Part shown: positions 19,901 to 56,510 of the stretch, piece after piece | How the letters are laid out: each line of letters starts with the position of its first letter | Position numbering within the stretch: the first letter of the stretch is position 1 | Origin: Crambe crambe | Taxonomy: Eukaryota; Porifera; Demospongiae; Poecilosclerida; Crambeidae | Assembly (NCBI GenBank): GCA_963924555.1 | Contig: OZ004591.1 | Location: forward strand, 4,278,001 to 4,342,000 | Direction: 5' to 3' | Length of the DNA: 64,000 nt | The notes under the pieces: generated by a model | The model's database searches: none | What the model was told of the DNA's origin: nothing | Seen by the model: the letters and a program-made list of their open reading frames with translations, nothing else | Translations under genes and position numbers: made by a program

Positions 19901-22052
19901 ATAAAGAGTTAAATAAGTACATGTCAAAATTAACATTGCACTTTGTCCTAGTAGTATAATAAAAGGAGCCTCACCAAATCGTAGCACAGTGGTCATGGAC
20001 AACTTCTTGAAGTCATTGTCAGTCTTATACTTCTTTGGCCATTCAGGACAACCACCAAACATGACAACCTCTGTCACTCCTGGACTGATAGTAGAAGCAG
20101 CAGCACAATGGTAATATCTTGACTGGAGACTTGGAACTTGGACCTGCATAATTATCATGCATGTGTATACAATATTTGTACAGGATAGCTGAGCTGAGTG
20201 GATATCAGCTACAGCAAAGTATGGACACATGTCTATTGTTGGATGGAGCACGTTTGGAATACTCTCATCGTTATGACACAGTTCAGGTGAGGTATCGAGC
20301 TTGTCACTCACATTCACTTACCTCTTTCCACTTCCTTGAGTCTAGATCCAATATCCACACATCACTTAGTGCCACACTATTAGCATCAACTCCCCCAGTC
20401 ACTAAAAGTTTAGGGTTGTCCCCACCATAGCCCAAACAGACTGCAACATGAGAACTTCTTTCCACTGGACGAGGTACTCCTTCAAGTTTACTCCAAATCT
20501 GTATAAAGGTACACAATAGGGAGAAAAACAAACAATTGTATGGAGGATAGCTATGATACTTATTATTAACGAAAAAGGCACGTTTTAATTCTTATTATTC
20601 ATCCATACATCTCACCATAGTGCTCAAGTCTATGATAAATGCATCATTGCTCCTTTTACCACATTGTCTACCTCCAAACAACACTGCACGGTGGCCATCA
20701 ATCATGGTAAAGGAGAAAGCATTACAGGGAGGTGGCCTTGTCCCACTGACAGTATGGGAGGACCATGTACCTGCAATGGATTCATAGAAATATCTGTTAC
20801 GTAGTAACTGAGTCTTAAATGGAGTACAGTATGTACAGATCATGAAATGAAGTATTACTTCATCATGTGTAATTGTTACAGAACTATGACACTGATGACT
20901 GCATCTTTATAGTGAGATCTTCCAGAACTAACAGGTATAGAGGGAAGGAGGTGTCTGGTCAAACTCTTATAATGGACTTGTTAATTTTTTTTTTTTTTTT
21001 TGGTATCATGTGATATCATGGAAGGGTTATAGCCTCGTACCCAGGCCTATTTTTTAGGCCTGGGTACAAGGCTAGGAAGGGCTATGGAATTTTGCATGAG
21101 GATTGTACTGTTAGTACTATGTCATAGTCAGTGAGGTATAGATAAGATGCAATGGAATGCGATACATTGCAATAGCTAACTAGTTATAAACTGCAATGGA
21201 TTTGCCATCTATAAAGACAGTCTCCTATAGATAAACAGATTCCTGTCTCAAACAACCTATCACTACATGATATGATATGCCTCTTGTTTATATGAGATGA
21301 TTAGCTGAGGTTCTTGAAGTGGCTGGTGTGACTTAGAACAAGCTGGTAACATGTATATCCCAGTTAAGAAGTGAATGTGTGATATTAATGATTATGTGGG
21401 CACACTCAAGTGATGTCTGCTCCCTGCCTTAAATAGGTCCCATCATGTTTTAAACTTTTCCCCAGTACCTAAAACCTTCAGATTTTTCAGTGAATATTTC
21501 CATGCACTTGTGTGAAAAAAATGATGCTCCCTCACCTTTTTTGAGGTCAAAGGTGTGCATCTCATTAGTCCACCCACTTCCATCGGTACAACTATTATCT
21601 CTTACAAAGTCTGCTCCTGACTGGGTGGGGCCTGATGGAATGCCATGTCCACCAAACAATACGCATTTCTCTCCACACACAACCATACTACAGAACAGTT
21701 TCTTCATGGGACTGTCAGCACTGTGTGGTGCCAATTCCCTCCATGATGACGTCCTAGTGTTGAACTCATATAGAGATCCATAATATGACTGTCCATCAAT
21801 CCCTCCATACGCGTAGATAATATGTCCTGAAGATGCACAGGCACCATAGTAGAACCAAGGGGGAGGGTCTCCTTTAGTTGTCTTTCTTGTCCAAGTCTCA
21901 AGGTAGGAATCGAAACTCTCAATAGACACTATCTTTTTCCCTCTACTCGTAGAAAAATCTTCAGTACATCCTCCCCACATATAAATCTGTCCATCGACGG
22001 AAGAAAAGGAGGGAGATAATCGAGGAGAGGGCTGGTAGAGAGGCACTGCCAT
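16937..22052 (-). CDS. Kelch propeller - coiled coil - TKL-type protein kinase, unit 1
   Basis: Spliced gene with about ten exons. It starts at ATG 22052 (MAVPLYQPSPRLSP) and ends at TGA 16937 after NIQTFQ. Exons 1-4 (to about 19980) encode six Kelch blades, recognised by YMWGG, YAYGG, VLFGG, VLFGG, LLVTGG and VVMFGG. Exon 5 (19201-19413) begins ELQSLTGEWVLTDVADNS; exons near 19130, 18850-19000, 18478-18705 and 18170-18280 encode Ala/Glu/Arg heptad coils. The last exon holds the kinase: GGGGWGEV loop, VAAK lysine, IVHRDISSANVLL loop, VTDYG (Tyr replaces Phe of DFG) and AAPE. No signal peptide or membrane segment, so probably a cytosolic sensor kinase. The 5' end abuts SEC24 remnants; an open frame even runs through from SEC24. 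The fold is clear; the biological role is unknown. Confidence 0.87.
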
Positions 22053-22831
22053 TTTGCTCGAGCCCCACCCACTATCAAGAAAGTCACGCCCACCGCATTT
22101 TATACAATGTATTTCATCTCCTAAAAAACTATCAAGGATCTCTTTGATTTCAGGCACAGAAAGTCTATATAAGTGACTCCTTCCTACTGCCCTGCCCCCC
22201 TTGTCCTCCTTTAGGAGTCTTCTGAAGAATATCTCACTCTTATCCTTTTGCTTGCACACAACCAACTAGAAAAGGAGATAGATAGAAAATTGCTGAGTCA
22301 AATACATCAATCATACCATTATCAAGGGGAAATTTGCTGCCAATAATTTGACATAAACTTTTTAGCTTTGTTATGTACATCAAACCATACACTTCTGACT
22401 TGCTCACCTTCAGGAAGTGTTGCCTTGAGGCCTGGAGCTGGTCCAAAACACCCCTCACCCGAAAGGACAAAGGATTGTCCAGTGCAGGGAGAGCATGCTA
22501 AACAACAAAGAATTCCACAATCCACATGACCTGATAAGACACAAGATGTGGGTACTCACAATTTCAGTATTGATCTGAGCTAGTGAGGGTACACCAAACA
22601 CCTTCTGGACAGAGTCGGTTGGAAATTGCTGTCCTATCCACATCACCATCACCAGACCATTCTCTATACGAATATACAACCATACATAATTCAAATTATA
22701 AGTCACGCCACCAAACAAGGTAAATACAGTGGAAGCTCCATAAACCTCTCAAATTCAACAAAGGACAATCTAAAAGTACCTCTGTATATGAAATAACTTC
22801 CAAAAGAGGACAACCTCATCCATTAATCCAC

Positions 22832-22864
22832 ATGTATGTATGTATGTATGTATGTATGTATGTC
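22832..22864. repeat. (TATG)n microsatellite, unit 1
   Basis: About eight TATG units in a SEC24 intron. The same site is longer in unit 2 (about 36968-37025, split by a retroposon) and unit 3 (about 46246-46290). Confidence 0.9.
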
Positions 22865-25628
22865 TAGAACTTACCAATGATGTAAAAACCTTGCCCTGTA
22901 CATCTCATTAGAGGAGGAAGACCCTTCTCATTGGTATCTAGATCAGAGGGGAACTTGTAAGCATGGAAACCCCTTACCAAAGCAAACATCCTTGGATAAA
23001 TGAAAGGACCCACTAAGTTAGTGGACATGTTCAAAAGACAGTGCATCATCCAACACTTCTCGTCAATACTCACAATAGGAGCTGAGGAAACAGGAAAACT
23101 AAAATAATCACTGATCATAAAACATCGGCAAAATGGAGTCAATTATACTTCTAATGCTTGACATTCAGCCAGCATTTTTTAATGGCAGAGTCCTCAAATT
23201 GGAATGTAAGGACAAGGGTGCATTAATTAGATTGTCTCCCACACTCATAATATTTTTAAAGAGCTTATATGTAAAAGGGCCACTTCTGTATAGCAGCCAC
23301 TTAGTTTAATTCCAAGTATGACTGATCTTACTAGCCTGTGGACTCACATGATAAGGGGGCATCTGACTTGGGGAGACAGTTGGCGTACATGGGGAGGAGT
23401 TTGAGGCTCTCGGTGTAGGAGACTGACTGGAGCAGTGCTTACGGTAGCAGGAGAGGATGACTGCACATTGGTGAGTGAAACTCCCACGGATGCTCTTGTA
23501 TGTCATGCCCAAGGAAGCATTCATGACTGCAAGTTGGGAAGGAAAGACCGTCACACTGAACTGCTACATTAAAGACTACACCCACTATCTGGGAAGACTG
23601 GATGTTGAGAATTGACAGTAAATTGCTATAGGCTATATCAATGTCAAACCATGATTAACAACTTTATGCAGAAATGGTCACTACTTTTAAATTTGTTCAA
23701 TGTTGAAAGCACTTAGAAAAAGGACGACAGATCACTTCGTAATCACCAAGCCACTGTCTCTGTGACTTTACTTCCTCTAAATGAAAGAATAACTTACTGC
23801 TCTTGGAGAGGAAATTAATGAGAGTGTCAATCTCACAGCTCCTGTAGATATCTGGAAACTTGAAGGAGCAGTTGAGGCACACACAACCTTCGCCAACCGT
23901 ACACATCAGTATACAAGCAGAGCAGTCTGGTAAAGGGTAGAATAATCATAAACAGTGACACAATGGTCTAAATAATGCCCATCTCACTGCTGCATTGGTC
24001 CAACAAAAAAATTGTACTGTAGTACACTGAGCTGTGCATTATTTAGACCTCTTAATCAATATGGTCCATTCTGCATTCACGCTGAGGACTATATGGGAGC
24101 ATGGGAAAACACAGTACCTGGAAGAAAGCCATCTCATCATCTCTGAGTTTGTCATCATGTTTGATCTCCACAGCAACAGCTTTGTCACAGTCGATATTGC
24201 CCATTTCTATGTCTGTAGTGTTGCTCATGTAGAAAGCACCGTAGAACCCTGTCGGTCTGAGTCCAGTACTGGAACGGACCCTCATCACACAGTCAAAGCC
24301 AGTTGGACGACTAAGGCTATGTTTCAAATCATCCATCAAACAGTCTCCAGCTCTATTTGACTGCACAGCACAAAAGTACAAACATAGTGAATTAAAAATT
24401 GAAACTTCAGTAAAATCTTACCTTAAAGATACTTACAGGTACAAAATGTATAACTTTAGCATCTACAAAGATAGTTTTTTCCAATAGTATACTAGACCCA
24501 TGCCTTCAACGTTCAAGGTATTATGTAAAGTCACATGGCCAACTGAGAGAGACTGACCAGAAAGTTGTTGTAGTAATGAATTTCCCCTCCAGTGGAGGCA
24601 GCAAAGGACCCCAATGTGGCCACGTCACAGTAGGAGCTTGGGAATAGGAACAGCATCACTCCCATTCCATACCTGACACACTCCTCTGCCAGTTTCTGGT
24701 AGGGGGAACTGGCTGGGTTCAACAGGGTCTAAAGTCAGTGAGTGTCAGAATAATGATCACATACCTATGGTATTTGTAAAGTTTTAACTCTATTAGAAGA
24801 GTCTGAGTGTGTGTATAAGTTGTGGTATGACTCCTATGGTCTGGATGACAGTTTAGGTGACAGGGCAATATGATTGATACAAGTTGGTTGGCAGTATCAG
24901 TCTATCTATCACCCTTGCTTGCTTCAGTGATGAATAGTGGTCATGCTATACTAGATTTATAAGGGCAGTGCTTTGATTGTCAGTCTACTTACTTACCTTC
25001 TCTTTGTCAGTGCTTTGTGTCCAGTCGATTCTTGAGCATACCTGTGGCCTGGGCAGAGGGGAGAGAGGAATGGAACACAAAGAAACGTCCATTTTTCCCT
25101 GCAGCTTTCAGGGCCTCCATTCCAGAGCGAACCACTGGCTCAAGGGCCTCGTTGAATGAAAAGATATCAGGAAGCTGAGACAGCAAACTGAATCAAGAAA
25201 AAGAGCGAGTTAGCGTAGTGCCCTCTGACCTTATTCTGAGGGAACAGTAATGGATCAACATAATAAAGGAGGGGATGGAACAGTCAAACTGATTGATTCA
25301 TGAGACAAAACAAAACAAAACATACACAAAAAGAATAGGCACTTCCAAAGTGAAAATGACCCCCTCAATCAAGTTATCCCTTGACTCAATACCTGAGGCT
25401 AATTCCCGATTAGTCCAGCCAAATTTTTCCTTTGTTTGGTCCAAATCCTTATTTGATTATTGATAATACTGCCTTATTTCAGGTATTGCTGAACTCACCT
25501 CATTTTGAGGGTCATTGGCAAAGGCCTGGATGACAAAACCCATGGGGATCCTGCAGCCATTGAGCAGGTCCTTGGAGCAGGGAACTGTGTACATGGTGGA
25601 ACGCATGTAGCGAGGGCTTACATTCCCT

Positions 25629-25738
25629 GCACAAAGAGAGGGAAAGGGGGAGGGGGAGATAGAGGAGGGGAGGGGAGGGGGAGGGGGAGATAGAGGAGGG
25701 GAGGGGAGGGGGAGATAGAGGAGGGGAGGGGAGTTAAG
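25629..25738. repeat. purine-rich minisatellite before a SEC24 splice acceptor
   Basis: G/A-only tract on the plus strand with about three copies of GGGGGAGATAGAGGAGGGG and several runs of four or five G. On the minus (coding) strand it is a C/T tract immediately before the acceptor TTTGTGCAG of the NVSPRYMRS exon, so it is an expanded polypyrimidine tract. The G runs could form a quadruplex. Other units lack this exon in this form. Confidence 0.8.
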
Positions 25739-26469
25739 ATAAAAGACAGCTGAGTAATCCCAGCTGTTTGATAGGACAAGGGGCCATTCTAAATTGACCT
25801 GGTCATGTCCTTCTGGCAACTCATGAGGAGAGAATTGTCCCATGGGATCAGGTGGCATAACAGGACCTGGGGATCCGTGCTGTCCTGGCACCCCCAGATC
25901 TGGGGGTCACTTGTTATTGTCCTGGCATAGGACCAGGTTGACCAGGCATACTTGTAGTATACATCACTACAGAGAGAAATTCCTGAGTCAATAATAATTA
26001 TAGATGGCACCAAACTTAATGAACTATGTTAACATGCATTCAATGTTACAGTGAAACTCAATAGTCTAATCAGACCACCTCTATTATGACACACTACTCA
26101 ATCCACAGTGAAGCACACTACCCTGCACATACTTGCTCCCAACCCACACCACATGGTCACAATTGTAAACACTATACCAGGAACCCTTACAAGGAAGAAT
26201 CAGGATTTTAAAAATCATTAAAACCATGAAAAGTAGACTCCACGAAGATTTCCAGCTCTAAAATTACTGTTCACTTATGTGAAAGGTGTCTGTATTCTTA
26301 CCATGGGAGTCAGTGAAGGTATCTTGATATGATATTTAGAGAGTCCACAATGGTTGCACTACAATACACTCTAGTCTTTATGATAATTTGTGGATATAAT
26401 AATTATCTCTATAAAACATTGGCTGAAATGTCAAGTACAACAGTACAATAGAGAATGGTTTTTGATATT

Positions 26470-27010
26470 GACTCACATGATAAGAGCAAAGGGCATCTGA
26501 CTTGAAGAGACAGTTGGGTTCACACGGGGAGGAGTCGGGGGGAATGAATTGTCTTGCAGGAGACTGACTGGAGCAGTGCTTACGATAGCAGGAGAGGATG
26601 ACTGCACATTGGTGAGTGAAACTCTCATGGATGTTCTTGCACATCATGTCAAGGGAAGCATTCATGACTGTGTGAAAGAGAACCATACATAATATTTCAT
26701 CATCACACCACTGAAAAAAAGGGAATGTTATGGTACGTCCATTCAATGCTAGTGCAATTAAGACAACCAATGGTCTGAGGTAAACTCAAATAACAATTCT
26801 GATCACTTTTCATGATGTGACCATGATCACTCCTTGATTTGTTGTAAACCATTGAGAAAGGAAATATTTAGACATCAGAGGCTTCAAAGCACACGAGGGT
26901 AGCTCCATGAAAGGTCTTACCATTTGAAAATTCTCATCCATGTATGGGGGGACGTCCTTGACTTGGAGGAACAGTTGATGGCAAGGTTGTGCACATACAG
27001 CCTTCACTGA
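26470..27010 (-). pseudogene. SEC24: second SEC24 fragment at the unit 1 / unit 2 boundary
   Basis: A repeat of exons already present at 23.3-23.9 kb: RLYVHNLAINCSSK-like sequence near 26950-27005 and ESFTHQCAVILSCYRKHCSSQ near 26570-26660. The exon sense and order match SEC24, but neighbours are absent and the frame changes after CSSQSPAR. This block begins the type of SEC24 remnant seen at 39.1-39.6 and 47.9-48.4 kb, so it marks a duplication breakpoint. Confidence 0.75.
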
Positions 27011-27059
27011 CAGTATACATAGCCAACCCTATGGTAAGAAGTAGACCATGCTAGACTAG

Positions 27060-27980
27060 GACTGTATCAATGGGAGCACGGGAATACATAGTGGGTCCTG
27101 ACACTGTATGACATAACTCTCACGTACACTAGGGATGGAAGTGTTACACATAATGTACCTGAAAGAAAGACAACTCATCACTTCTGAGTGCATGCTCAAT
27201 CCAGGTCAGACATTTTCATTTTCGACCAGTGTTAAGACAGTTCTAGCATGTTGGATGGTACTATCAGACTCACAGAGATAGGACAGGAAGACTTTTCAAC
27301 CAACTAAAGAGCTGGCTTCATAGCGACCCTTTACCAACAAAATTTCCTGTACGGGGTCGTCACGACACCAGACTCGACTGCATCTAGCTAGCTAGCTAGC
27401 TAGCTAGCTAGCTAGCTATACTATGGCGCGGCGGATACTCTCTTAGTGTAAACGCCTTACCAAACAGAACATGATCTGACTCAAGAGTTTTAGTGCCACC
27501 GAAAGTAATCTGCATAATTGTCTCCATGAATACCTGAGGACACCCACCAATTTTCCATTAGAACCTGTTGGCTGAAGTGACAGAGCATAATACTCAACAG
27601 TTCAAGATCCAAGAGTGCAATCATATGATATGATGACGACTGGAGTCATCTGCCAATGGCATGATGTAGCTGAGGTGAGCAATTATAGGGCTTGCTCCTG
27701 GCAGTTGTACACCAGTATATGGGGTTCACAATAACAGGTTTGTCATAGGACATTAATTTTATTTATTTATTCTGTCCTTCTCTGGCCAAAATTGCTCTAA
27801 TCAGATCCAGACAATAATTATAGTGCATGCCTTGATAGGAGTAGCACTGGGTGAAACTTCAAAGTTACTGATTACCTCATGTGCTTAATATCACCACCCC
27901 TTTAGATGAAAACATTCCCTTACTTTTTTTAGCATTGTATCACTGATTTAGACTGATTGTGAGTTGTATGAAGCAATCAT
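27060..27980. other. inter-unit linker with decayed MCM7-like scraps
   Basis: No gene. The linker recurs before each later MCM7 copy (39.6-40.3, 48.4-49.3 and 61.1-61.7 kb) with many indels. Around 27600-27670 the bases TTCAAGATCCAAGAGTGCAA and a following GACTGGAGTCATCTGCCAAT resemble fragments of MCM7 exons (ELKIQEHND and VTGVYLPMA), suggesting an older decayed copy. Small open frames in this linker change frame from copy to copy and are not genes. Confidence 0.5.
27384..27418. repeat. (GCTA)n microsatellite
   Basis: About eight and a half CTAG/GCTA tetranucleotide units, absent from the equivalent position of the other three linkers. Self-complementary, so it can fold. Confidence 0.9.
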
Positions 27981-27982
27981 AG

Positions 27983-30856
<2,874 letters not shown>

Positions 30857-31018: not shown

Positions 31019-34000
31019 TCACTCGAATGTTTGGATATTGACCAGGAGTTCAGCAGCTGAGGGTCTGTTGTCTTTGTCTTGCTGAATGCATCGTCGGATC
31101 AAGTCCACCCAGTGCTGGTCTTGGATGAATGCTATCAACCGCTCGCGAGCTGAGACTTCAGGGAATCGACAAGTGCACATCTCGACAAGGAGCACCCCAA
31201 AACTGAAGATGTCCATCTTGGGGGACTGGAGGGAAGGGTTGTGTGCCTCTGGGGCGGCATACACAGGAGAACCTGGTCCCACAGTCTGCAGTTGCTGCTG
31301 GAAGTTGACTGAACCATAATCGGTGACTTTAGCTCTCCAGTGATTGGAAGGCAGAGGCTCAAGGAGGACATTGGCACTGCTGATGTCGCGATGAACGATT
31401 GGGTCTGGCTGTATCAGGTGGAGATAGTTGAGGGCTCTGGCCACATCTAAACTGATGGAAGTCAGTTGATGTGCTGACATGTGGAAATCTTCCTTCTCCA
31501 TTTCTCTCCTCAAACTAGTTGGCATTAGCTCCATCAATATCACCATGCCTTCATCCATGCAGGCTCCAATAAACAGCACCAAATTAGGATGTCGGATTCT
31601 GGAAGCCATGTCCATCTCTCGCATGAAGAGATCTTGATAGTAGCCAGTCCTGATGGACTTGTAAAGCATCTTGGCAGCAACTTTGACTCCTCTGAATCTT
31701 GCAACCTTCACTTCTCCCCAGCCTCCTCCTCCCAAACTCTCTTCTGTGATGTCTATTTCTCTCCTCTGCACCACCCAATGCCTCTCATTACCTCTGCTTT
31801 CTGCCTCCCTCGTATGCTGCTGCTCAGTTTGTTGAGTAGCTCGCTCATCAACTTCATGTGCTCTTCTTTCTGCTTCATGCATTCTTCTCTCTGCTTCAGT
31901 AGCTCGCTCTTCAACCATGTGCACTCTCCTTTCAGCTTCACGTGTTCTCATCTCAGCTTCTATAACCCTCTGCTCTGCTTCTTTTATATGTTGTTCAGAT
32001 GCTTGTGCTTCCTTGGCTCGATCAGACTCTATAAATGCACCATGAAGATTAAAATGAAGAAAAAAGCTACATCCTTATACCCAGAAATAAGAAATGGAGG
32101 GGAGGAAGGGTTTGTCTAAAGTGATTTGCAGCCAGCCTCATTCCCAGGCGCTTTACCTCCAATTCTGTTATGTATAGGGGACGAAGCTAATTTACAGCCA
32201 TTCTTTTCTACTTTCTATTCCTTAAAAAGTAACTTCTTATACCAAAAATAATCAGAGGATATAATTCATAATGACGCTTTCTAAATTGTAATTTGTTGAA
32301 AATTCTAATTATTTAGCTAGAAGCCTTAATTTTCCACTTCCCTGACGTCAGACATACCTGCCAATACTCTTTCCTCGGCTATGTGCAGTCTTTTTTCAGC
32401 TTCTCTGACTCGTTCAGCTGCTTGTACCTCCCTTGCTAGTTGATCAGACTCTGAAAGCAAATTTAAGAATAATTAAGTATGTTGCCTCTTTGAATACTGA
32501 TTCAAATATTTGACCAATGAGATATTAGTTTCATTCTTATATGGGGTAAGGGTTATACCTGCAGATCTTCTCCTCTCTGCTTCTATAGCAGCCCTCTTCT
32601 CTGCTTCTGCAGATCTCTCCTCAGCTGTGTGCATTCTTCTTTCAGCTTCACGTCCTCTCCTCTCTGCTTCTGTGACTCGTTCTTCAGCTAACCGTGCTCT
32701 TTCTTCCATTTCCGCAATCATATTCTCTGCTTCTTTAGCTCGTTGCTCAGCTGTTTGTGCTCTTTCTGTTTCCCTGGCTATTTGTTCTATAGGTTAACCA
32801 TATAACAAGTGAATAATATAGCATCAATGTCAATAGTAAATCTACAAATATTGGTCAATGAGTATATAACTACTCTCTCTCATTGATAGGAGAAATTAAT
32901 TGGCCAGCATGAAGCTACATAATTATACAGAAAAATGATTCTACATACAAAGTACTTACCATTTGATATTCTCTCTGCTTCTGTAGCTCTTTCCTCAGCT
33001 GTGTGCAGCCTCCTTTCAGTATCACCAGACCTCCTCTCTGCTTCCCTTGCTCGTTGTTCAGCTTCACGTGCTCTTCTCTCTGCCTCTGTGACTCGATTTA
33101 ACTCTACAGAGGAAGATGATAATTAGCTACAACAATGATGTCTAGGATACTGAGTCCATGCAGCTACCTGTTGATAATCTCCTCTCTGCTTCTGTAGCTC
33201 TCTCTTCAGCTATGTGCACTCTCCTTTCAGCTTCACGCACATGATTGGATTCTATTAGGAGAAATGCAGTAATGAGTTATTAGAGTTATTTAGCTACACC
33301 TAACCATACCTGCTGACATTCTCCTCTCAGCGACTCTTTCTTCAAGATCCCTCACTATTTTATCCCTTCCAACCACATCCACTGGTCTTGCTGCTGCTGC
33401 ACTCTGAGCCATTTGACTCATCTTCACCATTTTCTCCCTGATCCTCTCACTTGTCCCTCGCTGGCTATTGTCAGCTACATCTGTCAGCACCCACTCTCCA
33501 GTGAGGGACTGCAACTCTGCAAAACAACAAGCATTGTGAAAGTGAAACTGCCTCCTATTAGGAGATATTGAAATTTTTGACCATTGAATGATTAATCAGC
33601 ATGACATGTAGTGTATCATTACATCATTATTTAACAATGAGCAATTGAATAGTACTATGAGATACTTTCCTTCAATGTTGCTAAAGGAATGCAGATATTC
33701 TTCATTCTAGTGATCTGATCTACAGACAACATTAATTAGCGGTTCAGCAAGTGAGCTGATCATGACTCATTGTGTATTCAGTCAGTGGAAAAGCTGACTC
33801 TCAGGTGATATGAATCCATCCAGACAGTTACATAACTATGTACATGTAGGAAACTGTAATTTTTACCACAAAGCACTTACACTTACTGACAAAATGCTGT
33901 ACAGTCAATCATGTTTGCCTATTGCATTAATGCACATGCTGGACACTACTAATCATGACAGACCACCTGGTGAATTTAGAGTGTAGACCTAGATGAGTCA

Positions 34001-36114
34001 TGAGCTATAAATAACTAGAACTAGTTATAAAGAGTTAAATAAGTACATGTCAAAATTAACATTGCACTTTGTCCTAGTAGTATAATAAAAGGAGCCTCAC
34101 CAAATCGTAGCACAGTGGTCATGGACAACTTCTTGAAGTCATCATATGTCTTATAACTCTCTGGCCACTCAGGACTACCACCAAACATGACAACCTCTGT
34201 CATTCCTGGACTGATAGTAGAGGCAGCAGCACAATGCCCAAATCTAGACTGGAGACTTGGAACTTGGACCTGCACATCATGCATGTATTTAAATATACAC
34301 CTGTACACAACACTTGAACAGGACAGCTGAGCTGAGTGGATATCAGCTACAGCAAAGTATGGACACATGTCTATTGTTTGATGGAGCACGTTTGGAATAC
34401 TCTCATCATTATGACACAGTTCAGGTGAGGTATTGAGCTTGTCACTCAGTAAATCACATTCCCTTACCTCTTTCCACTTCCTTGAGTCTAGATCCAATAT
34501 CCACACATCACTTAGTGCCACACTATTAGCATCACGTCCCCCAGTCACTAAAAGTTTAGGGTTGTCCCCACCATAGCCCAAACAGACTGCAACATGAAAA
34601 CTTCTTTTCACTGGACGAGGTACTCCTTCCTGATGGTCAAGTTTACTCCAGTGCTGCATAAAGGTACACAATAGGGAGAAAATCTATCAATCAAACAATT
34701 GTATGGAGGATAGCTATGGCACTTATTATTACCAAAAATGGCACATTTTAATCCTTATTATTCATCCATACATCTCACCATAGTGGTCAAGTCTAAGATA
34801 AATGCATCATTACTCTTCCCTATACCAGGCTGGTAACCCCCAAACAACACTGCATGGTGGCCATCAATCATGGTAAAGGAGAAAGAAGCACAGGGAGGTG
34901 GCCTTGTCCCACTGACATTTGGGGAGGACCATGTACCTGCAATGGATTCATAGAAATATCTGTTACGTAGTAACTGAGTCTTAAATGGAGTACAGTATAT
35001 GTACAGATCGTGAAATGAAGTATTACTTCATCAGAACGATGACACTGATGACTGCATCTTTATAGTGAGATCTTCCAGAACTAACAGGTATAGAGGGAAG
35101 GAGGTGTCTGGTCGAACTCTTACAATTGAATTGTTCTGGCCTGGGTACGAGGCTAGGAAGGGCTATGGAATTTTGCATGAGGATTGTACTGTTAGTACCA
35201 TGTCATAGTCAGTGAGGTATAGATAAGATGCAATGGAATGTGATACATTGCAATAGTTAACTAGTTATAAACTGCAATGGATTTGTCATCCATAAAGACA
35301 GTCTCCTATAGATAAACAGATCCCTGTCTCAAACAACCTATCACTACATGATATGATACGCCTTATGCTTAGCTGAAGTTCTTGAAGTGGCTGGTGCAAC
35401 TTAGAACAAGCCGGTAACATGTATATCCCAGTTAAGAAGTGAATGTGTGATATTATTAATCATACTCAAGTGATGTCTGCTCCCTGCCTTGAATAGGTCC
35501 CATCATGTTTTAAACTTTTCCCCAGTACCTAAACCTTCAGATTTTTCAGATAATGTATTTATTGTGTGAGATCACAATAATAATGATGCTCTCTCACCTT
35601 TTTGGGGGTCAAAGGTGTGCATCTCATTAGTCCACCCTTGTCCATCAGTATAACTATTATTCCTTACAAAGTCTGCTCCTGACTGGGTGGGGCCTGATGG
35701 GATGCCATACCCACCAAACAATACACATTTCTCTCCCCACACAACCATACCACAGTTCACCTTCTTCATTGGACTGTCAGCACTGTGTGGTGCCAATTCC
35801 CTCCATGATGACGTCCTAGTGTTGAACTCATATAGAGATCCATAATATGACTGTCCATCAGTCCCTCCATACATGTATATGTTATGTCCTGAAGATGCAC
35901 AGGCACCACTGTAGAGCCAAGGGGGAGGGTCTCCTTTAGTTGTCTTTCTAGTCCAAGTCTCAAGGTAGGGATCGAAACTCTCAATGGACACTATCTTTTT
36001 CTCTTTACTGGTAGAAAAATCTTCAGTACGTCCTCCCCACATATAGATCTGTCCATCGACGGAAGAAAAGTAGGGATTGAATCGAGGAAAGGGCTCGTAG
36101 AGAGGCACTGCCAT
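31019..36114 (-). CDS. Kelch propeller - coiled coil - TKL-type protein kinase, unit 2 (reference copy)
   Basis: Exons on the minus strand: 36114-35598, 34936-34779, 34653-34468, 34269-34101, 33516-33310, 33251-33168, 33103-32960, 32786-32559, 32450-32358 and 32028-31019. All have GT-AG borders and sum to 2796 bp, that is 931 residues plus stop. Residues 1-343 form six Kelch blades (MWGG, MYGG, LFGG, LFGG, VTGG, MFGG). Residues about 344-690 are charged heptads such as REAERRVHIAEERATEAERR. The kinase covers about 690-931: GGGGWGEV near 695, VAAK lysine near 715, helix-C Glu (REMDM) near 733, HRDISSAN Asp near 810, TDYG Asp near 832 and APE near 855. All catalytic residues are present, with DYG in place of DFG. 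TKL assignment rests on HPNLVLFIGAC and HRDISSANVLL. Partner, substrate and role are unknown. Confidence 0.92.
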
Positions 36115-40895: not shown

Positions 40896-43800
40896 TCACT
40901 GGAATGTTTGGATATTGTCCAGGAGTTCAGCAGCTGAGGGTCTGTTGTCTTTGTCTTGCTGAATGCATCGTCGGATCAAGTCCACCCAGTGCTGGTCTTG
41001 GATGGATGCTATCAACCTCTCACGAGCTGAGACTTCAGGGAATCGACAAGTGCACATCTCGACAAGGAGCACCCCAAAACTGAAGATGTCCATCTTGGGG
41101 GACTGGAGGGAAGGGTTGTGTGCCTCTGGGGCAGCATACACAGGAGAACCTGGTCCCACAGTCTGCAGTTGCTGCTGGAAGTTGACTGAGCCATAATCGG
41201 TGACTTTTGCTCTCCAGCAATCAGAAGGCAGAGGCTCAAGGAGGACGTTGGCACTGCTGATGTCGCGATGGACGATCGGGTCTGGCTGTATCAGGTGGAG
41301 GTAGTTGAGGGCTTTGGCCACATCTAGAGAGACAGTGATGATGAAATTGGCTGGCAAATTCTTCTGCTTCAGCTGTTGTCGTAGATTGGTGGGCATCAAT
41401 TCAGTGAGAATCACCATCTCTTCTTGCAGTGAAGCTCCAATGAACTGCACTAGATTGGGGTGGCGAAGTTTTGCTGCCATGTTCATCTCTCGTATGAAGA
41501 GATCATGGTAATACTCGTACTGCAGTTCCTTGTAAAGGAGTTTTGCAGCTACTCTGGTCCCTCTGAACTTTGCAACCATCACCTCTCCCCAACCTCCTCC
41601 ACCCAGATTCTTTCTCGTGATGATGATTTCATCTCTCTGCACTACCCAATGCCTCTCCTCCTCAGCTCTCCTCTCTGGCTGTCTGGTCTGCTGTAAGGAT
41701 ATTCTCAATCTTCTCTCTGCTTCAACTTGCTCCTCGGATATTCGAGCTCTTCTCTCAGCTTCTGTAGCTCGTCTCTCAGCTTCTGCAGCTCGTCTCTCAG
41801 CTTCCCTTGCTCGTTGTTCAGCTGTTTGTCTTCTTTCTGCTTCCCTAGCTCGTTGATTGGACTCTACAGGGGAAGGCAACTAATTTTAATCTAGCTCTCT
41901 CCTTAGCTATGTGCACTATCCCTTCAGGTTTATAGAAATTTTGAAGATAGGGGGTCATGGAAGCTATGTTCTCTATTGTAGCCCTGCTATTAGAGATTAT
42001 TATACCTGCTGACACTCTCCTCTCAGCTTCCCTTGCTTGTTGTTCAGCTGCTTGTCTTCTTTCTGCCTCTAGAGGAGGAAGACATGAATGTAACTCTCTC
42101 TTTAGCTATGTGCACTATCCCTTCAGCTATTAGATATTATCATACCTGCTGACACTCTCTTCTCAGCTTCCCTTGCTTGTTGTTCAGCTGTTTGTCTTCT
42201 TTCTGCTTCCCTGGCTCGTTGACTGGACTCTACAGGGGAAGGCATGAATTTTATATTGGATCTCTAGAATGTAGCTCTCTCTTCAGCTATGTGCACTATC
42301 CCTTCAGCTATTAGAGATTATTATACCTGCTGACACTCTCCTCTCAGCTTCCCTTGCTTGTTGTTCAGCTGTTTGTCTTCTTTCTGCTTCCCTGGCTCGT
42401 TGACTGGACTCTACAGGGGAAGGCATGAATTTTATATTGGATCTCTAGAATGTAGCTCTCTCTTCAGCTATGTGCACTATCCCTTCAGCTATTAGATATT
42501 ATTATACCTGCTGACACTCTCCTCTCGGCTTCCCTCACCACTTGGCTCATCTTCACCATTTTCTCCCTGATCCTCTCACTTGTCCCTCGCTGGCTGTTGT
42601 CAGCTACATCTGTCAGCACCCACTCTCCAATGGGAGATTGCAACTCTACAAGACAACAAAATAATAGCATTGTGAAACTGAGACTGCCTCTCTGACCATT
42701 TTTTGAAAATATGAACATGACCTTTGATGTTACAGTATCATCAAAACTCCGTATATAATCTCTATCTGAGCAATTGAATAGTACTATGAACTACTTTCCT
42801 TCAATATTGCTAAAGGAATGCAGATATAGTGATCTGATCAATATAGGCAACATTGATTAGCCGTTCAATCAGTGGATGCAGTGAGTAAAGGTGCATGACT
42901 CTCAGTTGACAGTTACATAAATGTACATATAAATTTTACCACAAGCATTTACGCTTACTGAAAAAAATGTTGTACTGACTCTCAGGTGATATGAATCCAT
43001 CCAGACAGTTACATAACCATGTACATGTTGGGAACTGTAATTTTTACCACAAAGCACTTACACTTACTGACAAATGCTGTACAGTCAATCATGTTTGCCT
43101 ATTGCATTAATGCACATGCTGGACACTACTAATCATGACAGACCACCTGGTGAATTTAGAGTGTAGACCTAGATGAGTCATGAGCTATAAATAACTAGAA
43201 CTAGTTATAAAGAGTTAAATAAGTACATGTCAAAATTAACATTGCACTTTGTCCTAGTAGTATAATAAAAGGAGCCTCACCAAATCGTAGCACAGTGGTC
43301 ATGGACAACTTCTTGTAGTCATCACCAGTCTTGGGATTCTTTGGCACCTCAGGACAACCACCAAACATGACAACCTCTATCACTCCTGGACTGATAGTAG
43401 AGGCAGCAGCACAATGCCTAAATCTAGACTGGAGACTTGGAACTTGGACCTGCACATCATGCATGTGTTTAAATATACACCTGTACACAACATCTGAACA
43501 GGACAGCTGAGCTGAGTGGATATCAGCTACAGCAAAGTATGGACACATGTCTATTGTTGGATGGAGCACGTTTGGAATACTCTCATCATTATGACACAGT
43601 TCAGGTGAGGTATTGAGCTTGTCACTCAGTAAATCACATTCACTTACCTCTTTCCACTTCCTTGAGTCTAGATCCAATATCCACACATCACTTAGTGTCA
43701 CTTTATTAGCATCATATCCCCCAGTCACTAAAAGTTTAGGATTGTCCCCACCATAGCCCAAACAGACTGCAACATGAGAATTTCTTGCCACTGGATGAGG

Positions 43801-45309
43801 TACTCCTTCCTGATGGTCAAGTTTACTCCAGTGCTGCATAAAGGTACACAATAGGGAGAAAAATCTATCAATCAAACAATTGTATGGAGGATAGCTATGG
43901 CACTTATTATTACAAAAAATGGCACATTTTAATCCTTATTATTCATCCATACATCTCACCATAGTGGTCAAGTCTAAGATAAATGCATCATTACTCCTCC
44001 CTATACCAGGCTGGTAACCCCCAAACAACACTGCATGGTGGCCATCAATCATGGTAAAGGAGAAAGCAGCACAGGGAGGTGGCCTTGTCCCACTGACAGT
44101 AGGGGAGGACCATGTACCTGCAATGGATTCATAGAAATATCTGTTACGTAGTAACTGAGTCTTAAATGGAGTACAGTATGTATAGATCATGAAATGAAGT
44201 ATTACTTCATCATGTGTAATTGTTACAGAAGTATGACACTGATGACTGCATCTTTATAGTGAGATCTTCCAGAACTAACAGGTATAGAGGGAAGGAGGTG
44301 TCTGGTCGAACTCTTACAAAAGACTTGTTCTGGCCTGCTGGGTACGAGGCTAGGAAGGGCTATGGAATTTTGCATGAGGATTGTACTGTTAGCATTATGT
44401 CATAGTCAGTGAGGTATAGATAAGATGCAATGGAATGTGATACATTGCAATAGCTAACTAGTTATAAACTGCAATGGATTTGTCATCCATAAAGACAGTC
44501 TCCTATAGATAAACAGATCCCTGTCTCAAACAACCTCACTACATGATATGATACGCCTTATGTTTAGCTGAAGTTCTTGAAGTGGCTGGTGCGACTTAGA
44601 ACAAGCCGGTAACATGTATATCCCAGTTAAGAAGTGAATGTGTGATATTATTAATCATACTCAAGTGATGTCTGCTCCCTGCCTTGAATAGGTCTCATCA
44701 TGTTTTAAACTTTTCCCCAGTAGCTAAAACCTTCACATTTTTCAGTGAATATTTCTATGCATTTATTGTTTGAGAACACAATAATAATGATGCTCCCTCA
44801 CCTTTTTTGAGGTCAAAGGTGTGCATCTCATTAGTCCACCCACATTCTTTAGTATCTCTTACAAAGTCTGCTCCTGACTGGGTGGGACCTGATGGGATGC
44901 CATACCCACCAAACAATACACATTTCTCTCCCCACACAACCATACCACAGTTCACCTTCTTCATTGGACTGTCAGCACTGTGTGGTGCCAATTCCCTCCA
45001 TGATGACGTCCTAGTGTTGAACTCATATAGAGATCCATAATATGACTGTCCATCAATCCCTCCATACATGTGTATGTTATATCCTGAAGATGCACAGGCA
45101 CCATGGTAGAGCCAAGGAGGAGGATCTCCTTTAGTTGTCTTTCTAGTCCAAGTCTCAAGGTAGGGATCGAAACTCTCAATGGACACTATCTTTTTCCCTT
45201 TACTGGTAGAAAAATCGTCAGTACGTCCTCCCCACATATAGATCTGTCCATCGACGGAAGAAAAGTAGGGATTGAATCGAGGAGAGGGCTCGTAGAGAGG
45301 CACTGCCAT
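40896..45309 (-). CDS. Kelch propeller - coiled coil - TKL-type protein kinase, unit 3 (divergent N-lobe)
   Basis: Starts at ATG 45309 (MAVPLYEPSPRFNPYF) and ends after NIQTFQ at 40896. Six Kelch blades as in the other units; exon 1 lacks a few residues in the loop after GADFVRD. The coil part differs: exon 5 reads ELQSPIGEWVLTDVADNS and is followed by tandemly copied 84-bp exons of the type SQRAREAERRQTAEQQAREA (about 42331-42414, 42149-42232 and a shortened one near 42007-42070). The kinase N-lobe is distinct (KNLGGGGWGEVMVAKFRGT, LRHPNLVQFIGASLQEEM) while the C-lobe from ALNYLHLIQPDPIVHRD onward is almost identical to units 1, 2 and 4. Catalytic Lys, Glu, HRD Asp and DYG Asp are all present. 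Likely a chimera made by recombination or conversion; expected to be functional. Confidence 0.87.
41985..42510. repeat. tandem exon-plus-intron repeats in the unit 3 coiled-coil region
   Basis: Copies begin near 41988, 42127, 42308 and 42490, with landmarks TATTAGA, ATACCTGCTGACACTCTC and GCTATGTGCACTATCCCTTC. The spacing is about 181-182 bp for the well-preserved units and 139 bp for the first. Each full unit holds one 84-bp phase-1 exon and its intron, so copy number changes lengthen or shorten the coiled coil without breaking the frame. Confidence 0.85.
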
Positions 45310-45324
45310 TTTGCACGAGCCCAC

Positions 45325-45438: not shown

Positions 45439-45498
45439 GAATGTCACGCCCACAGCATTTATACAATGTAGCTAAAATTAATAAAAAGACTGTCAAGA

Positions 45499-46244
45499 TC
45501 AAGACAGGATCTCTTTGATTTCATGATGGATCTGGCACAGAAAGTCTATATAAGTGACTCCTTCCCACTGCCCTGCCCCCTTGTCCTCCTTTTATAGGAG
45601 TCTTCTGAAGAATATCTCACTCTTATCCTTTTGTTTGCACACTACCAACTAGAAAAAGAGATAGACATAAAATTGCTAAGTCAAAATTAATACATGAATC
45701 ATACATTATCAAGGGAAAATTTGCTGCCAATAATTTGACATAAACTTTTTAGCTTTGTTATGTACATCAAACCATACACTTCTGACTTGCTCACCTTCAG
45801 GCAGTGTTGCCTTGAGGCCTGGAGCTGGTCCAAAACACCCCTCACCCGAAAGGACAAAGGATTGTTCAGTGCAGGGAGAGCATGCTAAACAACAAAGAAT
45901 TCCACAATCCACATGACCTGATAAGACACAAGATGTGGGTACTCACAATTTCAGTATTGATCTGAGCTAGTGAGGGTACACCAAACACCTTCTGGACAGA
46001 GTCGGCTGTCCTATCCACATCGCCATCACCAGACCATTCTCTATATGAATATACAACCATCACATTATAAGTCACACCACCAAACAAGGTAAATACAGTG
46101 GAAGCTCCATAAAGGACACTCCAAATTAGGACAAACCTCTCAAACTCAAGAAAGGACAATCTAAAAGTACCTCTGTATATGAGATAACTTCCAAAAGAGG
46201 ACAACCTCTCTACAAAGGGGTCCTAAGTGTGTCTATTAGTCCAC

Positions 46245-46275
<31 letters not shown>

Positions 46276-48350: not shown

Positions 48351-48399
48351 TCACCTCCCTGGCCCATGTATGGGGACCTTGAACAGTTGATGGCCTTCA

Positions 48400-49288
48400 C
48401 TGACAGTATACATAGCCAACCCTATGGTAAGAAGTAGACTATGCTGGACTAGGGATCCACTGAAATACATAGTGGTGTATAACATAACTCTCACGTACAC
48501 TACTAGGGATGGAAGTGTCACACATGTACCTGAAAGAAAGACAACTCATCACTTCTGAGTGCATGTTCAATCCAGGTCAGACATTTTCATTTTCGACCAG
48601 TGTCAAGACGGTTCTAGCTTTAAAATCTCTAAACCTCGCATGTTGGATGGTACTATCAGACTTTACAGAGACAGTTTTTCATGAAAGAGCTGGCTTCATA
48701 TCGACCCTTTACAAACCAAATTTCCTGTACGGGGTCGTCACGACACCAGACTCGATTGGATGCACTTACTCCTTTAGTGTAGACGCCTTACCAAACAGAA
48801 CATTGATCTGACTACTGACATGTCATCTCAGTTTTAGTGGAAACTCAGCCACCAAAGGTAATCAGCATAATTGTCTCCATGAATACCTGAGGATACCCAC
48901 GAACTTTCCATAAGAACCTGTTAGCTGAAGTGACAGAGCATAATGGTCAAGAGTGCAATCATATGATGATGACTGGAATTTATCAGCCAATGGCATGATG
49001 TAGCTGAGGTGAGCAGTTATAGGGCTCGCTCCTGGCAGTAGTATACCATTATATGTGGTTCACAATAACAGTTTTAAAAAAATTAATTTCTGTTTCTGCC
49101 CAAAATTCCTCTAATAAAATCCAGACAATAGCAGAGTGTTCTTTATGATTGCTTCAGCCAACTCACGATCAGTCTAAATCAGTGATACAATTACTATAAT
49201 GCTGAAAAGGTACCAAACTTCTAGAAGAAATAAAAATGTTTTCATCTAAAGGGTGGTGGTATTAAGGCACATGAGGTAATCAGTAACT
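48400..49288. other. inter-unit linker before unit 4
   Basis: Linker sequence shared with 27.1-28.0 and 39.6-40.3 kb. It includes a decayed MCM7-like scrap near 48950-49000 and no intact gene. The part at 49100-49290 corresponds in inverted sense in places to the sequence before unit 2 MCM7 (TCTAAATCAGTGATACAAT versus ATTGTATCACTGATTTAGA near 27934), so a local inversion is likely. Confidence 0.45.
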
Positions 49289-52458
<3,170 letters not shown>

Positions 52459-52614
52459 CACATGGATAGGCAGACATTGTGAACGTTATAAAGCTTCCTG
52501 TTACACCAATTTAAAAAAAAAAAAAACATTTTTGAAATAACTTTGTCGATAAAAATAATATCCTATACATAAAAACAACTAAACTAACTTTTTTTTTGTG
52601 TGTGTGTTCAGAGT

Positions 52615-55600
52615 TCACTCGAATGTTTGGATATTGACCAGGAGTTCAGCAGCTGAGGGTCTGTTGTCTTTGTCTTGCTGAATGCATCGTCGGATCAAGT
52701 CCACCCAGTGCTGGTCTTGGATGGATGCTATCAACCTCTCACGAGCTGAGACTTCAGGGAATCGACAAGTGCACATCTCGACAAGGAGCACCCCAAAACT
52801 GAAGATGTCCATCTTAGGGGACTGGAGGGAAGGGTTGTGTGCCTCTGGGGCAGCATACGCAGGAGAACCTGGTCCCACAGTCTTCAGTTGCTGCTGGAAG
52901 TTGACTGAGCCATAATCGGTGACTTTTGCTCTCCAGCAATCAGAAGGCAGAGGCTCAAGGAGGACGTTGGCACTGCTGATGTCGCGATGGACAATTGGGT
53001 CTGGCTGTATCAGGTGGAGGTAGTTGAGGGCTCTGGCCACATCTAAGCTGATGGAAGTCAGTTGATGTGCTGACATGTGGAAATCTACCTTCTCCATTTC
53101 TCTCCTCAAACTAGTTGGCATTAGCTCCATCAATATCACCATGCCTTCATCCATGCAGGCTCCAATAAACAGCACCAAGTTAGGATGTCGAATTCTGGAA
53201 GCCATGTTCATTTCTCGTACGAATAGAGATTGGTAGTAGCCAGTCCTGATGGACTTGTAAAGCATCTTGGCAGCAACTTTGACTCCTCTGAATCTTGCAA
53301 CATTCACTTCTCCCCAGCCTCCTCCTCCCAAATTCTCTTCTGTTAAGTCAATTTCTCTTCTTTGCACCACCCAATGCCTCTCATCACCTCTTCTCTCTGC
53401 CTCCCTTGCACACTGTTCAGCTTGTTGTGCTCTACTTTCTGCTTCAGTAGCTCGCTCTTCAGATGTGTGCAGTCTTCTTTCAGCTTCACGTGCTCTTCTC
53501 TCTGCTTCTGTGACTCTCCCCTCGGCTGTGTGTGCTCTTCCTTCAATTTCTGCTGCCCTCCTCTCTGCTTCTCTAGCTCGTTGTTCAGCTGTTTGTCTTC
53601 CTTCTGCTTCCCATGCTCGTTGATTGGATTCTACAAGGGAAGACAATTTTAATGATTGCCACAATTGATATTGTTGAAGCAATCCAATTACCTGCTGTTA
53701 ATCTCCTCTCTGCTTCTGTAGCTCTCTCCTCAGCTGTGAGCAGCCTTCTTTCAGTATCACCAAACCTCCTCTCTACTTCCCTTGCTCGTTGTTCAGCTTC
53801 ACGTGCTCTTCTCTCTGCCTCTGTGACTCGATTGGACTCTACAGAGGAAGATGATAATTACAACAATGATAATTACAACTAGCCATACCTGCTGACACTC
53901 TCCTCTCAGCTTCCCTGACTCTTTCTTCCAGATCCCTCACCACTTGGCTTATCTTCACCATTTTCTCCCTGATCCTCTCACTCGTCCCTCGCTGGCTGTT
54001 GTCAGCTACATCTGTCAGCACCCACTCTCCAGTGAGAGACTCCAACTCTGCAAGACAAAAAAAAGCATTAAGCTGGGACTGCCTCTTAGGAGAAATTTCT
54101 GACAAATCATTGAAAATATGAACATGACCTTCTGATCAACATGACAGGTTGATGTTACAGTATCATCATAACTTTGTATATAATCTGCTATCATTCACTA
54201 TCTGAGCAATTGAATAGTACTACGAGCTACTTTCCTTCAATGTTGCTAAAGGAATGCAGATATTCTTCATTCTAGTGATCTGATCTACAGGCAACATTGA
54301 TTAGCTGTTCAGTGAGTGAGCTGATCATGACTCATTGTATATTCAGTCAGTGGATGCAGTGAGTAAAGCTGACTCTCAGATGATATGAATCCATCCAGAC
54401 AGTTACATAACTATGTACATGTTGGGAACTGTAATTTTTACCACAAAGCACTTACACTTACTGACAAAATGCTGTACAGTCCATCATGTTTGCCTATTGC
54501 ATTAATGCACATGCTGGACACTACTAATCATGACAGACCACCTGGTGAATTTAGAGTGTAGACCTAGATGAGTCATGAGCTATAAATAACTAGAACTAGT
54601 TATAAAGAGTTAAATAAGTACATGTCAAAATTAACATTGCACTTTGTCCTAGTAGTATAATAAAAGGAGCCTCACCAAATCGTAGCACAGTGGTCATGGA
54701 CAGCTTCTTGTACTCATCGCCAGTCTTGAGATTCATTGGTACCTCAGGACAACCACCAAACATGACAACCTCTGTCACTCCTGGACTGATAGTAGAAGCA
54801 GCAGCACAATGCCCAAATCTAGACTGGAGACTTGGAACTTGGACCTGCACATCATGCACGTGTTTAAATATACACCTGTACACAACATTTGAACAGGACA
54901 GCTGAGCTGAGTGGATATCAGCTACAGCAAAGTATGGACACATGTCTATTGTTTGATGGAGCACGTTTGGAATACTCTCATCATTATGACACAGTTCAGG
55001 TGAGGTATGATCACTCAGTAAATCACATTCCCTTACCTCTTTCCACTTCCTTGAGTCTAGATCCAATATCCACACATCACTTAGTGCCACATTATTAGCA
55101 TCAACTCCCCCAGTCACTAAAAGTTTAGGGTTGTCCCCACCATAGCCCAAACAGACTGCAACATGAGAACTTCTTCCCACTGGACGAGGTACTCCTTCCT
55201 GATGGTCAAGTTTACTCCAGTGCTGCATAAAGGTACACAATAGGGAGAAAACCTATCCATGGCACTTATTATTAAAGAAGCAGTTTAATACCCTTATCAC
55301 TCATCCATACATCTCACCATAGTGGTCAAGTCTATGATAAATGCATCATTACTCCTCCTTAGGCCAGATTGTTTACCCCCAAACAACACTGTATGGTGGC
55401 CATCGATCATGGTAAAGGAGAAACCAGCACAGGGAGGTGGCCTTGTCCCACTGACAGTAGGGGAGGACCATGTACCTGCAATGGATTCATAGAAATATCT
55501 GTTACATAGTAACTGAGTCTTAAATGGAGTACAGTATGTACAGATCATGAAATGAATTCATGAGGATTGTACTGTTACTATGTCATAGTCAGTGAGGTAT

Positions 55601-56510
55601 AGATAAGATGCAATGGAATGTGATACATTGCAATAGCTAACTAGTTATAAACTGCAATGGATTTGTCATCTATAAAGACAGTCTCTTATAGATAAACAGA
55701 TTCGTGTCTCAAGCAACCTACATAAGTAAAATATCACCACATGATATGATATGCCTCTTGTTTATATGAGAAGATTAGCTGAGGTTCTTGAAGTGGCTGG
55801 TGTGACTTAGAACAAGCTGGTAACGTAATACATCCCAGTTAAGAAGTGAATGTGTGATATTAATGATTATGTGGGCATACTAAAGTGATGTTTGCTCCCT
55901 GCCTTCATCATGTTTTAAACTTTTCCCCAGTACCTAAACCTTCAGATTTTTCAGATAATGTACTTGTTGTGTGAGATCACAATAATAATGATGTTCTCTC
56001 ACCTTTTTGGGGGTCAAAGGTGTGCATCTCATTAGTCCACCCAGTATGACTATTATTCCTTATAAAGTCTGCTCCTGACTGGGTGGGGCCTGATGGGATG
56101 CCATGCCCACCAAACAATACACATTTCTCTCCCCACACAACCATACCACTACTATTCTTCTTCATTGGACTGTCAGCACTGTGTGGTGCCAATTCCCTCC
56201 ATGATGACGTCCTAGTGTTGAACTCATATAGAGATCCATAATATGACTGCCTATCAACCCCTCCATACGCGTAGATGATATGTCCTGAAGATGCACAGGC
56301 ACCATAGTAGCACCAAGGGGGAGGGTCTCCTTTAGTTGTCTTTCTTGTCCAAGTCTCAAGGTAGGAATCGAAACTCTCAATAGACACTATCTTTTTCCTT
56401 CTACTCGTAGAAAAATCTTCAGTACGTCCTCCCCACATATAGATCTGTCCATCGACTGAAGAAAAGAAGGGACCGTATCGAGAAGAGGGCTCGTGGAGAG
56501 GCACTGCCAT
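52615..56510 (-). CDS. Kelch propeller - coiled coil - TKL-type protein kinase, unit 4
   Basis: Starts at ATG 56510 (MAVPLHEPSSRYGPFF) and ends after NIQTFE at 52615, 157 bases from the convergent MCM7 stop. Kelch exons lie at about 55995-56510, 55319-55476, about 55040-55225 and about 54677-54846. The coil exons number fewer than in unit 2: about 53881-54050, 53691-53842 and the long final exon from about 53633. The kinase has GGGGWGEV, VAAK, HRDISSANVLL, VTDYG and AAPE, so all catalytic residues are kept. Propeller loop residues differ from all other units (for example PPPWCYYGA, LFGGKQSGLRRSND). The frame stays open upstream of the ATG for 14 codons, but homology between units starts at MAVPL, which favours this start. 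Confidence 0.88.

Follow-up and report, generated by a model that had tools for sequence, protein, structure and literature searches.

Diversifying selection on one loop face of the propeller in a tandem array of Kelch-kinase genes of the sponge Crambe crambe

What does it mean when tandem copies of a gene keep the same propeller scaffold and change, blade after blade, at the same loop positions? This question is raised by a stretch of 64,000 nucleotides of the demosponge Crambe crambe (bases 4278001-4342000 of contig C14, GenBank OZ004591.1), referred to as the window, which contains four copies (units 1 to 4) of a gene joining a Kelch propeller to a kinase. An earlier note on this DNA listed residues that differ between the four units at two equivalent sites in all six blades, the residue after Gly-Gly (Gly-Gly+1, site one) and the residues before the next core strand, strand a (site two), and proposed a diversifying recognition receptor. 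Here, we show that one loop face of the propeller is under diversifying selection and that the kinase is conserved.

The gene of unit 4 has seven coding exons on the minus strand and encodes a product of 780 residues. Exons 1, 2, 3a and 3b form the propeller, exons 4 and 5 and the start of exon 6 a putative coiled coil, and exon 6 the kinase. In the Pfam search of the unit 4 protein, Kelch_KLHDC2_KLHL20_DRC7 (9.4e-47) and several other Kelch models exceeded the cut-off, and the six Gly-Gly blades align across 23 intact copies, a few of which have a changed Gly. With these repeated Kelch motifs, the proteins are Kelch beta-propeller proteins. The coiled-coil region matches the tropomyosin family at residues 364-520 (5.8e-07), below the curated cut-off. 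The best solved matches of the kinase domain are CTR1 (5.7e-25), TAK1 (7.8e-23) and IRAK4 (1.1e-16); its Lys, HRD and APE motifs, read by eye, are present, and DYG replaces DFG. By domain and motifs, it is a TKL-like kinase, and it may be catalytically active. None of BTB, BACK, F-box, NACHT/NB-ARC and LRR is among the 14 Pfam families matching the unit 4 protein. By hydropathy, we found no signal peptide or membrane helix in this protein: the highest 19-residue mean, 1.79, lies inside the kinase, and the N-terminus scores 0.03. Because hydropathy reveals no such segment, the protein is most likely intracellular.

The stretch between blades 5 and 6 was considered as coding sequence and rejected. 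It is an intron, with GT-AG borders in all 23 intact copies and a length that is not a multiple of three in 10 of the 21 copies measured; these lengths in other copies argue against coding. We notice that the intron of unit 4 is open in frame, so that a longer linker would be possible if it were retained.

The window holds only a part of the family. With blades 1-3 as the query, we searched the whole assembly of 143,139,886 bases in 119 contigs at E <= 0.001. This exon-1 search gave 90 matches, 73 of them on C14; in some cases one locus is hit by several fragments, and the lowest-scoring matches may belong to ordinary Kelch proteins. The tandem array comprises 24 propeller loci between 4.124 and 4.449 Mb of C14 and extends far beyond the window. 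Twenty-three of its propellers are intact with conserved splice borders, and one is frameshifted. By position, a kinase match follows 21 of the 23 intact propellers, one of these kinases bearing a stop; since the kinase search scored 148 of 361 candidates, the absence of a kinase after the other two is unproven. More distant Kelch groups are located at 4.64-4.66, 5.3-5.7, 2.0-2.6 and 5.9-6.4 Mb and elsewhere.

Every residue that the earlier note had listed at the two sites is present in the four units. Comparing these four copies, 19 of the 24 columns defined by the note vary, versus 49 of the 322 others (Fisher 7.6e-11), a test that is circular because the sites were chosen from the same copies. 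An independent set was therefore formed by 17 of the 24 array copies, all outside the window; the four window copies, the near-identical sister of unit 1, a copy sharing the propeller protein of this sister and the frameshifted copy were dropped. In the 17 copies, a column holds 1.93 different amino acids on average; at Gly-Gly+1 the mean is 4.50 (permutation p 0.00035), and over the three residues that precede strand a it is 3.94 (0 of 100,000 permutations). Aligned on Gly-Gly, the profile is a one-residue spike that goes from 1.0 at the G to 4.5 at +1 and back down to 2.17 at +2. Aligned on the first residue of strand a, it reads 3.83 at -3, 3.33 at -2, 4.67 at -1 and 1.83 at 0. Variability thus peaks at Gly-Gly+1 and at the one to three residues before strand a in copies that the note had not seen, but the two matched sites are not the whole of the variation, as positions further along the b-c loops vary too (e.g. 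columns 154-161, 209-216, 272-274 and 325-335). The d-a and b-c loops share one face of a Kelch propeller, and the two sites are peaks within one variable loop face.

The site test was a FUBAR-like analysis under the MG94 codon model with a 20x20 grid, applied to 22 unique propellers, with sites called at a posterior above 0.9. The global ratio of nonsynonymous to synonymous rates (omega) is 1.09; 37 sites were called positive and 45 conserved, and allowing the nonsynonymous rate to exceed the synonymous one (beta>alpha) gains 144 in likelihood (2dlnL). Of the 37 positive sites, 34 fall in the d-a or b-c loops, which hold 160 of the 346 columns (Fisher 1.5e-9), and the opposite-face loops contribute one called column out of 41. 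The note expected the signal of a codon-based dN/dS site test on one face, and this is where it is concentrated. When the exons are analysed separately, the gain is 82 in one analysis and 65 in the other, and the face holds 17 of the 19 and 15 of the 16 sites called, respectively. Within the 17 copies outside the window, 15 of the 24 note-defined sites were called positive, versus 23 of 322 others (p 1.6e-10). A tree-free count of the minimum nonsynonymous and synonymous changes, made on the 17 copies unless stated, gave 23 nonsynonymous and 0 synonymous changes at Gly-Gly+1 (p 0.002) and p 0.024 for both sites pooled. The remaining face columns have 184 nonsynonymous and 61 synonymous changes (ratio 1.11), and the columns off the face have 77 and 67 (ratio 0.42).

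Recombination among the propellers complicates this test. Local incompatibility is 0.301, versus 0.401 when shuffled, and 0 of 500 shuffles were as low. In 14 simulations without positive selection, the gains ranged from 0.2 to 8.1; in 12 recombination-aware nulls, with eight separate segment trees, they ranged from 11.9 to 47.7. The observed gain exceeds all 26 simulated nulls. Because recombination inflates site calls, lists of single sites are unreliable, and the overall selection signal stands despite recombination.

As neutral yardsticks, we compared 210 pairs of 21 copies from one haplotype, leaving out the frameshifted copy, the divergent copy at 4414650 and one duplicate. Mean pairwise divergence of the introns is 0.052-0.057. 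Mean nonsynonymous divergence (dN) is 0.518 at Gly-Gly+1, 0.376 at site two, 0.114 across the other face columns and 0.027 off the face, and mean synonymous divergence (dS) is 0.102 overall, 0.080 outside the face and 0.127 in the rest of the face. Pairwise dN/dS exceeds 1 at both sites, where dN is approximately 7-10 times the intron divergence. Relaxation alone would not raise dN above the divergence of the introns. Chance and simple relaxation are both rejected by the tree-free count, the intron comparison and the simulated nulls. In the kinase, compared over 21 of the 22 array copies after the stop-bearing one was dropped, omega is 0.39; of its 258 sites, 74 were called conserved and 3 positive. 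The earlier note had proposed that selection changes the binding face and keeps the scaffold, as in an immune or self/non-self sensor that signals through a kinase; selection on the loop face and conservation of the kinase bear out the selection part of this reading, whereas an immune or self/non-self role is conjectural, and that this face is the ligand face is assigned by homology.

This homology leads to KLHDC2. It provides the nearest solved structure (8uxs, E 3.5e-25, residues 8-317 of 340) and is closer than KEAP1, whose best chain gives 3.3e-5. According to the available text of one report, R236, S269 and R241 of KLHDC2 are canonical contacts for the acid of the ligand in the substrate pocket (PMC11470957). 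If a single offset is applied to the numbering (chain position +21), the three contacts hit the right residue types in the alignment, at columns 209, 246 and 216. R236 is Gly-Gly+1 of blade 4, S269 lies two residues before strand a of blade 5, and R241 is in the b-c loop of blade 4. In the sponge copies these columns vary (Y, R, K, D or N at 209; S, N, Y or G at 246; R, K or M at 216). The predicted sponge pocket is in the same place as that of KLHDC2, and its content is not kept. A search for further pocket residues of KLHDC2 yielded none, so the comparison uses these three.

Do the same sites vary in other arrays? Exon 1 was compared in three groups: one at 5.3-5.7 Mb with 11 copies, 10 of them unique, one at 2.0-2.6 Mb with 15 copies and one at 6.0-6.4 Mb with 6 copies. 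They are approximately 38-49% identical to unit 4; the exon-1 loci L051, L052 and L053 were aligned and left out of the group tests. At the 12 exon-1 sites, the mean numbers of amino acids are 2.75, 2.83 and 2.75, versus 1.47, 1.61 and 1.57 elsewhere, an excess with p 0.0018, 0.0020 and 0.0003, respectively.

The kinases fall into two types, A and B, 78-82% alike, which are scattered over the propeller tree no differently from chance (6 changes, against a random mean of 6.66, for 21 genes). Compared with the window, a locus of the 5.3 Mb array (L070) has a DNA identity of 68-75% in the propeller exons, with little alignment outside them. The identity climbs shortly before exon 4, starting a few tens of bases upstream of it. 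Versus units 1, 2 and 4, exon 4 is approximately 90% identical, and exon 6 together with the sequence past the stop 87-88%; versus unit 3, the identity is 78.7% over 2166 aligned columns, introns included, again running past the stop. From this jump it follows that the signalling tail has moved between very different propellers. We also notice six matches to the same type of kinase (49-58% identical) on another contig (C13:2674449-2834453), in long open frames, one of 8104 residues; the kinase is thus also joined to other, giant proteins.

Several observations weigh against selection on a ligand face of a receptor kinase. Of the called sites, columns 49, 81 and 202 fall outside the face, one in an opposite-face loop and two in strands. 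Loops and strands were classed by the Kelch consensus and by alignment to KLHDC2 at a point when the variable columns were already known; when the class borders are shifted by one or two residues, the enrichment is weaker but kept (p 6.6e-06 to 0.0027). In the tree-free count, site two alone is not significant (57 to 15, p 0.24), nor is the whole face (285 to 86 in 22 copies, p 0.073). The 12 recombination-aware nulls yield 3-27 false sites each, and the kinase shows a small likelihood gain of its own (8.8). In the other arrays, the gains are 11.6, 35.7 and 2.7, none above the largest recombination-aware null of the window array. The relatives at 2.02-2.60 Mb of C14, fifteen propellers approximately 31-50 kb apart, are Kelch-only as far as the kinase search detected; at L069 and L071 in this array, the 12 kb after one propeller holds an exon-4-like piece only and no kinase. 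Finally, dS is also raised at site two (0.198), where an older local ancestry or a higher mutation rate contributes. This elevation near the sites is compatible either with older local ancestry kept by selection while conversion evens the rest, or with some mutational bias.

Weighing these points, we consider the genes to be probably intracellular Kelch-coiled-coil-TKL kinases, the ligand face of which diversifies in conflict with changing, probably microbial, ligands. We propose the following mechanism as the simplest reading. Each gene encodes a probably intracellular receptor kinase of approximately 780 residues, in which a putative coiled coil joins a six-bladed KLHDC2-like propeller to a TKL-like kinase at the C-terminus. 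The face of d-a and b-c loops may bind a ligand that differs between the copies; binding would allow the coiled coil to cluster the kinases, and the largely common kinase would relay one signal. Tandem duplication, recombination of the propellers and swapping of the kinase tails would supply the variants, and diversifying selection on the face would keep them different. Conflict with changing foreign proteins, e.g. microbial or viral molecules inside the sponge cells, is the likeliest driver. Sponge cells ingest bacteria.

Among the other explanations, the family may consist of specialised adaptors that recognise clients or degrons, each phosphorylating a different internal target, and that diverged after duplication without an arms race. 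New paralogues often specialise, and the closest solved fold is that of a degron receptor, KLHDC2. We regard this as unlikely, as the same sites change in four arrays and in recombining copies, which suggests continuing rather than one-off specialisation, and the KLHDC2 contacts are not kept, with columns 209 and 246 varying widely.

It is also conceivable, and in our judgement quite improbable, that the proteins are self/non-self (allorecognition) receptors whose face reads tissue-specific ligands when a sponge meets and may fuse with its neighbours. C. crambe is encrusting, and high diversity among linked copies joined to a conserved signalling part is in keeping with such a role. However, the diversity seen here is between paralogues within a genome and is not allelic polymorphism, and the lack of a signal peptide or membrane helix in the hydropathy of unit 4 makes allorecognition at the cell surface less likely. 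Among the literature matches listed for chimerism, fusion and allorecognition in C. crambe, none names the species.

Relaxed constraint or a raised local mutation rate in exposed loops, with gene conversion evening everything else, would account for the higher dS on the face, the strong recombination and the non-significant whole-face count, but it is very improbable in view of the 23 to 0 count at Gly-Gly+1, a dN above every dS class and far above intron divergence, a gain exceeding 12 of 12 recombination-aware nulls and the quiet opposite-face loops.

The positions of the four units are collected in Table 1.

Table 1. Coordinates of the Kelch-kinase units, given as positions in the window
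Feature	Position	Strand	Remarks
Unit 4 exon 1 (start codon, Kelch blades 1-3)	56003..56510	-	Open frame, GT donor; matched in 24 array loci
Unit 4 exon 2 (blade 4)	55318..55475	-	AG/GT borders conserved, 23/23 intact copies
Unit 4 exon 3a (blade 5)	55037..55222	-	AG/GT borders, 23/23 intact copies
Unit 4 intron, blade 5/6	54845..55036	-	192 bp, open here; 171-202 bp in 21 copies measured
Unit 4 exon 3b (blade 6)	54676..54844	-	AG/GT borders, 23/23 intact copies
Unit 4 exons 4 (54047-53889) and 5 (53838-53692), putative coiled coil	53692..54047	-	
Unit 4 exon 6 (coiled coil end, TKL-like kinase, stop codon)	52615..53630	-	Pkinase 4.6e-32, PK_Tyr_Ser-Thr 1.1e-30
Unit 3 exon 1, blades 1-3	44802..45309	-	Further exons: 2 44117-43960, 3a 43833-43648, 3b 43449-43281
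Unit 3 kinase exon, type B	40896..41863	-	5' border approximate
Unit 2 exon 1, blades 1-3	35598..36114	-	Further exons: 2 34936-34779, 3a 34653-34468, 3b 34269-34101
Unit 2 kinase exon, type A	31019..32019	-	5' border approximate
Unit 1 exon 1, blades 1-3	21536..22052	-	Further exons: 2 20770-20616, 3a 20498-20322, 3b 20143-19975
Unit 1 kinase exon, type A	16937..17977	-	5' border approximate

Between the units, pieces of an MCM helicase gene lie on the plus strand (28094-30807, 50625-51746 and 62280-63382). Three open frames of these regions were tested and match the MCM P-loop domain, and the pieces were apparently copied along with the array. On the left side of the window, an open frame of 1057 residues (3629-6802) matches a reverse transcriptase (RVT_1 4.1e-11) and represents a retroelement-like gene. 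Several successive open frames follow at 12928-14945, one of which weakly matches the ZSWIM1-3 RNaseH-like domain (1.6e-05, below the cut-off); a second frame tested there gave no domain match. This region is possibly a transposon remnant.

How do the Kelch-kinases relate to known systems? KLHDC2, a substrate receptor of an E3 ligase, shares the Kelch propeller, and its acid contacts sit in the loops that vary here. In contrast, KLHDC2 reads C-degrons for ubiquitin ligation, whereas the sponge proteins have not conserved these contacts, and their propeller is followed by a putative coiled coil and a kinase. The BTB-Kelch proteins of the KEAP1/KLHL type differ in the BTB and BACK domains, which were not among the Pfam matches of unit 4. 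The animal and plant TKL kinases (CTR1, TAK1, IRAK4 and TNNI3K) resemble the C-terminal domain, which matches the first three and has the Lys, HRD and APE motifs; the sponge kinase differs in its DYG and in its fusion to a Kelch propeller via a putative coiled coil. Nematode F-box and MATH-BTB proteins and plant F-box-Kelch proteins form large families with selection on the substrate-binding part and act via ubiquitin ligation, whereas no F-box or BTB was matched in unit 4. The NLR immune receptors share a diversified recognition part, a conserved signalling part, many copies and an apparently intracellular location, and differ in that neither NACHT nor LRR was among the Pfam matches of unit 4. 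Since the defining features tested are absent, we do not assign the Kelch-kinases to the KLHDC2, KEAP1 or NLR families.

Large sets of NLRs are described for some sponges in the available text of PMC6208332. Brown-algal ROCO proteins, candidate immune receptors, are alike in being a signalling family, one with exon shuffling, that was proposed as a receptor repertoire (PMC11378527), and they differ in domains and lineage. Two sponge papers mention Kelch genes in passing in the portions available (PMC6208332, PMC11000336). Among the matches listed from the open-licence literature, we found no account of a Kelch-kinase fusion as a diversifying repertoire. The domains are individually known, and their fusion as a diversifying repertoire appears to be a new variant within the diversifying recognition receptors. 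With dN above dS on a face assigned to the ligand by homology, and with a conserved signalling part, the Kelch-kinases would belong to the diversifying multigene recognition receptors.

We tentatively suggest, as a possibility that falls short of our favoured expectation, that this sponge lineage has a germline-diversified intracellular Kelch repertoire with a selected variable face and interchangeable coiled-coil-kinase tails, which may be a Kelch counterpart of the NLRs. We know of no immune repertoire built on the Kelch propeller fold. To our knowledge, sponges have no antibodies, and little has been learned about the molecules that let them distinguish friend from foe. A family with measurable diversifying selection on a predicted binding face provides direct candidates for recognition; the variable residues point to the likely ligand site, and the kinase offers a read-out. 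The Kelch propeller, usually a reader of degrons or partners, may provide a variable scaffold for recognition, to which signalling tails are attached interchangeably.

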